Part shown: positions 11,343 through 14,706 of the stretch, in pieces
Numbering within the stretch: position 1 is the stretch's first letter
How the letters are laid out: the number at the start of each line of letters is the position of its first letter
Source: Leptolyngbya iicbica LK
Lineage (GTDB): Bacteria; Cyanobacteriota; Cyanobacteriia; Phormidesmidales; Phormidesmidaceae
Reading direction: 5' to 3'
Assembly (NCBI RefSeq): GCF_004212215.1
Contig: NZ_QVFV01000001.1
Span: 1,533,532 to 1,567,805 of the forward strand
Length of the DNA stretch: 34,274 nt
The notes under the pieces: model-generated
What the model was told of the DNA's origin: nothing
Database searches by the model: none
The model's input: only the letters and a program-made list of their open reading frames with translations
Position numbers and translations under genes: made by a program

Positions 11343-13553
11343 TTAAACCAGGGTGCCGCCATCGATTTTGCGGACAGCGACCACAGCCGGACGCGGTGCC
11401 GCGTTGACCTGCTGACTGGGCCAATTAGAGCCCAGGGGCACGTCGCGCTCTTGGGTAAAGAGCTGACCATCGGTCGTTTTCATCGCAAACTTGCGCGTCT
11501 CAAAGGCTCCCTCTTTGCGAGTGCCATAAGTTTCACCTGGGTGCTGAGCCGCCAAAAAAAGAGTCGACTGGTCTTGGGTGATAAACGGGCCACACATCTC
11601 ACATTCCATCGGGCCATAGGCAAACATCAACGCTTCCCCAGCATGTGGCCCCGAGGTGGGAATGTACCAGACTGAATTGTTGCCAAACAATCCGCGCAGA
11701 TTCGACTGGCTGACGGCGTTACCTTCTTCATCAATTCGGCTGGCGACTTCGAGATTATGCTTACTGGTGGACATATCCGTCACCATCCACAGGTTGCCGC
11801 TGCCATCGATTTCCAAATTATCCGGGTTCGAGAAGCCAAAGCCACCCTCGGCAGGTTCACCGCCCAAAGCCATCATTTCCCAGGTAAAGGTCATGGCGGC
11901 AGGGTCCGTTCCCGTCTCTTGCAACTTCATGATCCAGCCGTGTTCATAAGGCGTTTCGCCATTCGGGCCTTGAAAGATAGTGTTATCGGGGCCGCCGTCG
12001 CCACCGGGGCCACCTGACGTAAAGGCGATGAACAATGTGCCATCAGCCGCCACATCGGTGTCTTCGGGGCGGGCGGTGCAGATCGCGCCTGCCGCATTGG
12101 CGGCAAAATGCGCGTCGATCAAAATCGCCCCCTGCTTTTCCTCAGCAGAGCCTTCGTACAGATCGCCTAAGGTGCGATATCGCTGGGCAAAGGCCCGCAT
12201 CTCAGCATCGGACTCAACTTTGACCACGCCGCCTGCGGGCCGTTGCGGCAAGGTAATCATGCCGCCTGCCACTTGGCTGGGCATATCGGGGTTCACCGCT
12301 GTATCGGCTTGGAGGGCAATCCACTGGCCGGTGCCATCCGCATTGAATTTGGCCGCGTAGAGCATGCCGTCGGTCATGAGTTGGGAGTTAGTTTTGCTGG
12401 TGGGATTCATCACCGTACCAGCACTCACAAATTTGTAGAGGTGGCCGCCCCGGCGATCGCACCCCGAGTAAACCGCCAGCTTTTGATTAGCGACGGCGCG
12501 TACTGCCACGGCTTCATGGCGAAACCGACCGAGCCAGGTGTGCTTGACCCCGTAGTCGTCAGCGTTGGCGGGATCCACCTCTACCATCCAGCCATACTTA
12601 TTGCCCGCGTAGCCAAAGACGCCACCCAGGCCATCAAAGTCATTGGCCTCGACGATAAATGGCTTTTCGGAGGTTGGCAGGGAAGTGCCATCGGCAAAGA
12701 CGGGTTCGGGTACGTAGTTCTGAAAGTTTTCTTCAGCACTGAGCACCGTGCCCCAGGGGGTAGTGCCGCCCGCGCAGTTATTGAAGGTGCCGATAATTTT
12801 TTCGCCCAAGTCGTCTACATAGCCCCGACCTGAGGTTTTATTAAAGACAGCCACAGCCGGCCCTGTGCTGGCTAGGTAACGGCCATCTTCCAGACCTGAG
12901 AGGCCCGTGATGCGGCGATCGGCAGGGGAGAAGGTACGCTCCCAGGCACCAGCGGCATTACGGCGCACTGAGATGACGCCAATCCCCACGTCGGTCAGGG
13001 CTTCTTTCCCCAATTCACGCAGCTGCGCCTTGAGCACACTGTTATCGGGCACGTCGTCAAAATTAATGCCCGCGTCGCCCGCAGCGATCGCAGCAGTCTT
13101 GATTTCATCCAAAGGCAGTGACTGACCAATGACATCAGGATACGTTTCTAGCCAGGTGCTGCCGCTGATGTATTCAAAGTTGATCGTCAAATAGCCTTCG
13201 TTGGGTGCAGTTTCGACCAGGGACAGGTAGTCGTTGTTGTAGCCAAAGCGCGAGTCACCAATTTGATCGCCCCAGGCTCCAATGACGTCGTAGGTGTAGC
13301 CCTCAGGCACCACCAACTCATCTTGCACAATGTACCGACTAAATTTCGTCGATTCGTTAGCGGAGGACAAGCCCATGTAGGGCATGGGCATCGGGCCTTC
13401 GACGGGGGTGAACGGTAGCGAAGTGTTGGCCAGGGCTGGCGCACCTTGCAAAGGGGCTGCCAGTTCTTTACCCGTACGCCCCCAAGGGACTAAAGCGGTC
13501 GCCCCAGCAGTGGCGCCTATAAACATCAAAAACTGTCTGCGCTTAAGGCTCAT
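11343..13553 (-). CDS. phoX: PhoX-family alkaline phosphatase (DUF839), Tat-exported
   Basis: A 736-residue secreted phosphomonoesterase of the PhoX family, whose members use iron and calcium to release phosphate from organic esters. The N-terminus KRRQFLMFIGATAGATAL is a twin-arginine signal, consistent with export of the folded metalloenzyme. Family landmarks are TPWGTVLSAEENFQNY, SGCDRRGGHLYKFVS, PDNLEIDGSGNLW, and the C-terminal MECEMCGPFITQD with FLAAQHPGETYG. The frame is open to 13655, but the ATG at 13553 (AGGT upstream) begins the Tat signal, so it is chosen. A three-repeat Pho-box-like array lies about 180 bases upstream, suggesting induction by phosphate starvation through SphS-SphR. 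A hairpin follows the stop. Confidence in the family is high; substrate range is inferred. Confidence 0.92.
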   Translation of the reverse strand: MSLKRRQFLMFIGATAGATALVPWGRTGKELAAPLQGAPALANTSLPFTPVEGPMPMPYMGLSSANESTKFSRYIVQDELVVPEGYTYDVIGAWGDQIGDSRFGYNNDYLSLVETAPNEGYLTINFEYISGSTWLETYPDVIGQSLPLDEIKTAAIAAGDAGINFDDVPDNSVLKAQLRELGKEALTDVGIGVISVRRNAAGAWERTFSPADRRITGLSGLEDGRYLASTGPAVAVFNKTSGRGYVDDLGEKIIGTFNNCAGGTTPWGTVLSAEENFQNYVPEPVFADGTSLPTSEKPFIVEANDFDGLGGVFGYAGNKYGWMVEVDPANADDYGVKHTWLGRFRHEAVAVRAVANQKLAVYSGCDRRGGHLYKFVSAGTVMNPTSKTNSQLMTDGMLYAAKFNADGTGQWIALQADTAVNPDMPSQVAGGMITLPQRPAGGVVKVESDAEMRAFAQRYRTLGDLYEGSAEEKQGAILIDAHFAANAAGAICTARPEDTDVAADGTLFIAFTSGGPGGDGGPDNTIFQGPNGETPYEHGWIMKLQETGTDPAAMTFTWEMMALGGEPAEGGFGFSNPDNLEIDGSGNLWMVTDMSTSKHNLEVASRIDEEGNAVSQSNLRGLFGNNSVWYIPTSGPHAGEALMFAYGPMECEMCGPFITQDQSTLFLAAQHPGETYGTRKEGAFETRKFAMKTTDGQLFTQERDVPLGSNWPSQQVNAAPRPAVVAVRKIDGGTLV

Positions 13554-13734
13554 AATGACCTGTGTTCTCTGCTCAACATCAGATGGACTGGTGTCATCAG
13601 CTGCTGAGCCGGAGCAGCCATTTATGGCATTGACCGATGTGCCAACCTTCACCATTTACGGCGGGGCAGCGATCGCTCCCTGATACGACAACCCTGACAA
13701 CACCTGCCTTCCAGTGCCAAATCCTAGGGCGGCC

Positions 13735-13764
13735 AGATTAATGACAGGTAATGTGAACGTTATG
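13735..13764 (-). promoter_or_regulatory. Pho box-like array upstream of phoX
   Basis: Reading the minus strand, three 8-bp units CATAACGT, CATTACCT and ATTAATCT are separated by exactly 3 bases (11-bp period). Against the cyanobacterial consensus CTTAACCT/YTTAAYYT they match 6, 6 and 7 of 8. The sequence TAGGAT follows 8 bases later and could be the -10 element. The overlapping segment 13730-13747 also matches 14 of 18 positions of the E. coli Pho box. Confidence 0.55.
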
Positions 13765-13797
13765 GGTCGGCAAATTTTTCAGATTCCTATTGGAGCT

Positions 13798-14706
13798 TTA
13801 GGGCACGGGGACGGAATCCAGAAGGGAAGCAATGAGCGGAGCCCCTTGATGGCCCCCCGCAGGAATCAAGCGGTGAGCCAACACATAGGGGGCTAACTGT
13901 TTCACATCGTCGGGCAAGGCGTAGTCGCGATCGCTCAAAAATGCAAATGCCTGCACCGCCCGATAAAACGCCACGCTGCCCCGAGGACTCACCCCCAAGG
14001 TGATATCGATATGGTCTCGCGTGGCTCGCACCAGCGACAAAATATACTGCTTGACGGATGCCTCAACCCGCACTGTCGCACAAGCAGCCTGAATGCCCGC
14101 CACTTCTTCGGGTGTGATACAGGGCTGCAAATCCTGGGGACGAGTAGGGGTCGTCAAGCGATCTAGCATGTTGCTTTCTTCGGCCTCAGCGGGATACCCC
14201 AGAGAAAACGATAGCGCGAAGCGATCCATCTGGGCTTCTGGCAGCGGAAAGGTACCCTGATATTCCACTGGATTCTGAGTCGCAATGACGAAAAACGGGG
14301 TAGGCACAGGGCGGGAGACGCCATCCAGCGTCACCTGATGTTCTTCCATCACTTCTAATAAAGCTGACTGGGTGCGCGGTGTCGCCCGATTAATTTCGTC
14401 CGCCAGCAGCACGTGGGCAAAGACGGGGCCCGGCATAAATTGAAACTGACCGCTGCTGGGGTTCCAAATGTTGGTGCCGGTAATGTCAGCGGGCAGCAGA
14501 TCAGGCGTACATTGCACTCGCTGAAACGACCCATCAATGCAGCGTGCCAATGACTTGGCTAAGAGCGTTTTGCCCACACCAGGCACATCCTCTAGCAAGG
14601 CGTGGCCGCCAGAAAATAGCGCTACCAGCACCAGACGAATCGCCGCTTCTTTGCCGACGATAGTTTTGCTGAGGTTGTCAAATAACTGCTGGACGCGATC
14701 GCTCAT
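13798..14706 (-). CDS. MoxR family AAA+ ATPase
   Basis: A 302-residue AAA+ ATPase of the MoxR group. Walker A is EDVPGVGKTLLAK, Walker B is VLLADEINRA, sensor 1 lies in FFVIATQNPVEYQGTFPLPEAQMDRF, and the lid domain follows with the SPRGSVAFYRAVQAFA sensor 2 region. MoxR proteins act as chaperones that assemble or activate partners, often together with von Willebrand A domain proteins; no such partner gene lies in this window. The frame could begin with a TTG at 14712, but the ATG at 14706 has TAGGAA upstream and is chosen. It lies 59 bases downstream of ribF on the same strand. Confidence 0.93.
   Translation of the reverse strand: MSDRVQQLFDNLSKTIVGKEAAIRLVLVALFSGGHALLEDVPGVGKTLLAKSLARCIDGSFQRVQCTPDLLPADITGTNIWNPSSGQFQFMPGPVFAHVLLADEINRATPRTQSALLEVMEEHQVTLDGVSRPVPTPFFVIATQNPVEYQGTFPLPEAQMDRFALSFSLGYPAEAEESNMLDRLTTPTRPQDLQPCITPEEVAGIQAACATVRVEASVKQYILSLVRATRDHIDITLGVSPRGSVAFYRAVQAFAFLSDRDYALPDDVKQLAPYVLAHRLIPAGGHQGAPLIASLLDSVPVP

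Follow-up and report, generated by a model that had tools for sequence, protein, structure and literature searches.

A three-box repeat upstream of phoX in Leptolyngbya iicbica LK is very probably a conserved SphR landing site

Introduction

In the cyanobacterium Leptolyngbya iicbica LK, a short direct repeat lies upstream of the phosphatase gene phoX, within a stretch of 34,274 nt that we analysed as a whole (hereafter, the window). The locus raises the question of what this repeat is: a Pho-box array serving phoX, the site of another regulator, a relic, or a part of the gene next door. Judging from its sequence and spacing, both of which are kept in related cyanobacteria, the repeat is very probably a landing site for SphR, the cyanobacterial PhoB.

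Results

Three boxes and a −10 element precede phoX

Read on the coding strand of phoX, positions 13764 to 13721 of the window (− strand) are CATAACGT tca CATTACCT gtc ATTAATCT GGCCGCCC TAGGAT. The original prediction had placed three 8-bp units with 3-bp spacers on this strand at 13735–13764, with TAGGAT as a possible −10 element and a PhoX gene about 180 bases downstream, and the sequence bears out each of these points. The array itself (13764–13735, −; CATAACGT-tca-CATTACCT-gtc-ATTAATCT) consists of three octamers with an 11-bp period and 3-bp linkers, the −10 hexamer is conserved in relatives, and the end of box 3 lies 181 nt from the phoX ATG (Table 1). Two details of the boxes had to be revised. 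Each octamer matches the consensus CTTAACCT at 6 of 8 positions, where 6, 6 and 7 had been given, and the A at the second base, described for the units in general, is present in two of the three. Nor is this A specific to the lineage, as had been suggested: it is also found in the phoX box of L013 (another family) and of L014 (another genus of the same family), and in phoA boxes listed for Synechocystis (CATAGTCT, CATAAGTT) and Synechococcus (CATAATCT) in Table 1 of PMC1906773.

Table 1. Features of the phoX locus (window coordinates)
Feature	Position	Strand	Remarks
phoX, 736 aa, N-terminus MSLKRRQFLMF	11343..13553	−	PF05787, 340 bits, E 3e-101
Predicted Pho box 1 (distal), CATAACGT	13757..13764	−	5.5 bits; CATAA in 5 of 7 aligned species, own included
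Predicted Pho box 2, CATTACCT	13746..13753	−	5.9 bits; ATTACC invariant in 7 aligned species
Predicted Pho box 3 (proximal), ATTAATCT	13735..13742	−	8.5 bits; TTAA and last T invariant in 7 aligned species
Putative −10 element TAGGAT, 8 nt past box 3	13721..13726	−	T, A and final T invariant (7 species)
Predicted transcription start and phoX 5′ leader	13554..13720	−	inferred from the −10 position; poorly conserved

For comparisons between genomes we used 29 of 30 phoX loci, leaving out L032, whose locus does not include the N-terminus. An ATG aligned with the phoX start at 13553 in 23 of these 29 loci (own included), and a longer start at 13655 was dropped on these grounds. The RR motif at the N-terminus is presumably of the Tat type. 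PhoD, considered as a further phosphatase target, had no match in the L. iicbica LK genome.

The array sits directly 5′ of the −10 element and occupies the place of a −35 element, as in an SphR-type Pho-box promoter. A search of 13540–13900 for a consensus sigma-70 promoter with a −35 element found none, as would be expected if an activator were needed.

The array stands out from the genomic background

We scored the array with a single 8-column Pho-box matrix summed over three boxes. Its source was Table 1 of PMC1906773, reduced to 22 non-redundant rows: 29 of the 30 rows were taken, leaving out CCMP1375 (a strain without sphR), and seven near-duplicates were then removed. At 19.93 bits the array ranked first among 68,490 window positions, followed by a place with 14.53 bits, and it fell within the range of the published sites when these were left out one at a time (4.8 to 27.6 bits). 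To the window we added 20 further stretches, chosen non-randomly (13 around genes for phosphate-binding proteins or regulators, 7 as background), which brought the sample to 344,678 positions per strand, or ∼345 kb of the 5.7-Mb genome. Compared with intergenic background, as the original prediction had envisaged, the array again stood out: 2 of 168,882 sampled intergenic positions reached its score, itself included. The array is real and not a chance match.

A single place in the ∼345 kb scored higher, at 23.2, near a MobF relaxase gene. Here, 11-bp-spaced direct repeats (L065:9411–9525, −) lie some hundreds of bases 5′ of the gene; they probably belong to a mobile element, as iteron- or oriT-like repeats, and probably do not form a Pho site. 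Because these repeats reach 23.2, we rejected the matrix score by itself as proof of a Pho site. In 18 of the 29 phoX regions the three-box score was above 13.5, the highest value among 4000 random 400-bp windows; L026, L027 and L029 had no array by the three-box matrix.

A −10 element follows the boxes at 8 nt in many phoX promoters

To examine the spacing, the best two-box pair of each region was picked by the matrix alone, which contains no −10 letters, and TAnnnT was counted at each offset downstream (0–18 in the sets of 29 and 26 regions; 0–19 in the named-locus, de-duplicated and pstS sets). TAnnnT stood at offset 8 in 15 of the 29 phoX regions and at every other offset from 0 to 18 in at most three; once the close relatives L004, L005 and L008 were dropped, the count at 8 was 13 of 26 (own included in both). 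With the seven regions in which the 8-nt spacing was first seen left out, as well as L015 with its short upstream sequence, 10 of 21 relatives had TAnnnT at +8 and 4 had it at +19, one box further out and the next commonest offset. The same pattern emerged from named GTDB genomes, where 73 of 80 loci were usable (six were without the N-terminus and one had a short upstream sequence): 29 had TAnnnT at +8, nine at +19 and at most three at any other offset, and in 44 it was not at +8 of the best pair. Removal of eight near-duplicates left 65 genomes, with 23 at +8 and nine at +19. By background, TAnnnT would be expected at a rate of 1.6 to 2.4 percent; since the promoters are related and not independent, nominal P values would be too small and were not used. 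There is clearly one sharp TAnnnT offset, at 8 nt, across phoX promoters.

Only 35 of the 73 named loci had a best pair that scored beyond the 95 percent level obtained with shuffled sequence (medians 13.4 versus 8.2); L182, L190, L199 and L212 are examples without an array. Twelve phoX promoters from Phormidium, Pseudanabaena and Nostocales-type records (L147, L148, L164, L166, L167, L172, L175, L185, L189, L191, L201 and L208) share the form nTTACCT-nnn-CTTAAnCT, 8 nt, TA(A/G)A(G/T)T. Boxes at the 8-nt spacing were present 5′ of phoX in nostocalean records named Nostoc, Calothrix, Rivularia, Hassallia and Fortiea, and also in Brasilonema, Tolypothrix, Richelia and Fischerella muscicola records; they were absent from Fischerella thermalis, both Scytonema records and two Nostoc records with a distant PhoX.

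pstS carries the same layout

A pstS gene on contig C5 (L049; TIGR02136, 303 bits), followed by pstC, has the promoter TTTAACCT-gtc-CTTTACGT, 8 nt, TAGTAT. TAnnnT was located at +8 in all 14 best-matching pstS loci (own and the 13 next best, L068–L081). Of the 16 weaker matches, L082–L097, only two had it there; among these 16 are one broken copy and the top match of each of five genomes. The pstS gene of L. iicbica LK is a second Pho gene with the same layout as phoX. When we searched the sampled ∼345 kb with a combined rule (two boxes summing to at least 12 bits, with TAnnnT at +8), exactly two places were returned, one 5′ of phoX and one 5′ of pstS. The matrix check that came with the original prediction, whether the site ranks with pstS/phoA promoters, is passed in this sample. 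The assignment of the array to an SphR/PhoB-type architecture draws support from the matrix rank and, more strongly, from conservation in relatives.

The other three of the four PstS-type genes examined in the genome (L048, L051 and L052) fail the combined rule, L048 with two good boxes but TATCCC at +8. In the same locus, an array of 19.5 bits, CTTAACCT-CTTAGCCA-GTAAACCT (L048:3496–3525, −), is without TAnnnT at +8; it lies ∼120 nt 5′ of a histidine kinase gene (L048:1898–3373) and ∼3 kb from a pstS gene on the same strand.

Candidate SphR and SphS genes are encoded

The NCBIfam PhoB model gave 89 matches in the L. iicbica LK genome, none of them over the cut-off and with an NblR-like protein scoring highest. 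Naming SphR by this model alone was rejected for this reason; we instead relied on gene neighbourhood in relatives and on a tree, setting aside RpaB (L057) and the NblR-like protein (L053) as candidates. By homology and by this neighbourhood, two paralogues that are 62 percent identical, RR-A (G000 C3:332043–332822) and RR-B (C1:472345–473061), are candidates for SphR. Each of eight genomes outside the family has one gene of this type at E 1e-75, and six of these eight loci have a same-strand histidine kinase, recognised by its H-box motif, downstream of it; the flanking sequence examined at 22 SphR-type loci within the family showed no such kinase. Two of the kinases were scanned and best matched the PnpS and PhoR models, below the cut-offs. 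To such an SphS-type kinase the L. iicbica LK genome has one match at E 1e-30, at C1:504818 (L134), with 53 percent identity. Judged by homology and by gene neighbourhood in relatives, and with no regulator over the NCBIfam PhoB cut-off, the genome thus encodes genes of both the SphR and the SphS type.

The tree separates RR-A (10 rows, 99/98) from RR-B (13 rows, 85/99, not starred), a result to be read with the caveats that long branches meet, that the bootstrap had not settled and that clade B lies outside the well-supported (starred) forks. A search of 15 genomes of the family, that of L. iicbica LK among them, found RR-A in 10. Upstream of it, L. iicbica LK has the array TTTAACCT-3-GATGATCT-3-CTTAAGCC (L059:4827–4856, +); the corresponding loci in relatives are L104–L112. 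All six genus members have GAnnAT at +8 of the array (16.1 to 18.4 bits). Among another four members of the family, the hexamer is GATCAT in L112 and CAAGAT in L111, and L110 and L113 do not show it. This conserved Pho-box-like array suggests autoregulation of RR-A. A more elaborate scheme strikes us as rather doubtful: SphR would be duplicated in the family into an RR-A and an RR-B clade, with one SphS-type kinase here, RR-A would activate itself through its Pho boxes, and the paralogues would share out phoX-type (nTTACCT-nnn-nTTAA) and pstS-type (nTTAACCT-nnn-CTTTACGT) boxes. In the literature searched on SphR paralogues and on SphR pho boxes in Leptolyngbya, nothing evidently concerned a duplicated SphR, which is not proof of absence.

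Another OmpR-family regulator, RpaB, might use the same repeats. The HLR1 motif of RpaB consists of two TTACA-type octamers with a 2-bp gap and hence a 10-bp period, and ATTACCT and ATTAATCT have ATTA in common at a distance of 10 bp. RpaB is encoded (L057; NF045944, 397 bits, over the cut-off). When 10 upstream regions were scanned, three (L003, L004 and L009) had their best HLR1 match overlapping the array and seven had it elsewhere. At the phoX site the best match was 12 of 16 to the HLR1 consensus, a level that 39 of 343 background 400-bp windows reached or exceeded, and the pstS promoter carries the same Pho layout. An RpaB site is therefore very unlikely, and we rejected it because the match is not well above background.

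The box cores are conserved whereas linkers vary

We aligned seven phoX upstream regions, from L. iicbica LK, five species of the same genus and one of the same family. Boxes 2 and 3 were the most conserved 19 nt among 311 windows, with a mean pairwise identity of 0.81 versus at most 0.61 elsewhere. Invariant in all seven were ATTACC, TTAA, the last T of box 3 and bases one, two and last of the −10 element, whereas linker and spacer bases varied, as expected under selection. Box 1 was less well conserved and has decayed in L006 and L009, where the best three-box match lies elsewhere (9.6 and 10.6 bits, respectively), as does the best box pair of L009. Conservation 5′ of phoX in relatives is present but not universal, given the 35 of 73 named loci above.

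These cores bear on the idea that the array is a former Pho site, now weak and non-functional in this species. The 6 of 8 consensus matches per box would fit such a relic, but seven species share the box 2 and box 3 cores, and TA...T in the −10 element, without a change while linkers and spacers vary, L. iicbica LK has them intact and the regulator genes are retained, so that we regard a relic as highly improbable. The least probable reading is that the block is the 3′ end or terminator of the MoxR-type ATPase gene, the 5′ neighbour of phoX on the same strand. The stop codon of this gene ends at 13798, which leaves 33 nt up to the array, and MoxR was found 5′ of phoX in 7 of 29 loci, own included. 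We rejected this reading: the block is retained in L006 and L009, two loci with no MoxR detected upstream, and so goes with phoX; same-spacing arrays lie 5′ of phoX in other families in which MoxR was likewise not detected; and no terminator-like hairpin was found in 13540–13900.

Discussion

We put the probability at roughly 0.9 that the array and the −10 element form a phoX promoter activated by SphR, with the array as its predicted binding site. When phosphate runs short, the phosphorylated form of SphR would attach along one face of the DNA to the array with its 11-bp period. Boxes 2 and 3 take the place of the −35 element, and SphR would recruit a sigma-70-type RNA polymerase to TAGGAT 8 nt downstream, so that the PhoX phosphatase would be made and exported. 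SphR binding, the induction of phoX at low phosphate and the transcription start are the parts that we infer; the array, its fixed distance to the −10 element, its conservation, the pstS gene with the same layout, the missing −35 promoter and the SphR- and SphS-type genes are observed. Counting against SphR are the 6 of 8 consensus matches per unit, the MobF repeats that outscore the array and the many loci without one.

The finding would place phoX of this lineage in the phosphate-starvation regulon. It also provides a rule sharper than the consensus of the boxes by itself, namely two boxes followed after 8 nt by TAnnnT. An RNA-seq study of Nodularia from 2023 reports no conserved P-box before phosphate-starvation genes and suggests other regulators (PMC9846622); given the phoX promoters of other nostocaleans, the question can be reopened.

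Among known systems, the closest comparison is with the SphR-binding Pho boxes of Synechocystis PCC 6803 (sphX, pstS2 and phoA) and those predicted in other cyanobacteria (PMC1906773, Table 1). Like the array described here, they consist of three 8-bp direct repeats with 3-bp linkers; unlike them, none of the three phoX boxes has the full CTTAACCT, and the main text of that paper does not contain the word phoX. For Synechocystis, the motif is also given as YTTAAYYW with a three-nucleotide spacer and boxes that overlap the −35 region (PMC13226834); the cyanobacterial linker is stated as 5 bp in PMC6713934, versus 3 in PMC13226834 and in the table of PMC1906773. The pho box of E. coli PhoB shares the 8-bp repeats, the 3-bp linkers and a fixed distance to the −10 element, but has another consensus, a distance of 10 bp and at least two repeats (PMC1906773), compared with 8 nt and three repeats at phoX here. 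Trichodesmium phoX (Tery_3845) is reported to carry a pho box and to be induced, along with sphR, at low phosphate (PMC6411698); as far as its description allows a comparison, this is the same gene family by name and the same kind of site in a different lineage. Pho boxes before cyanobacterial phosphatase genes, that of Trichodesmium phoX included, are thus already known (PMC1906773, PMC6411698), and the phoX array of L. iicbica LK, though well supported, is an ordinary case of a known type of switch.
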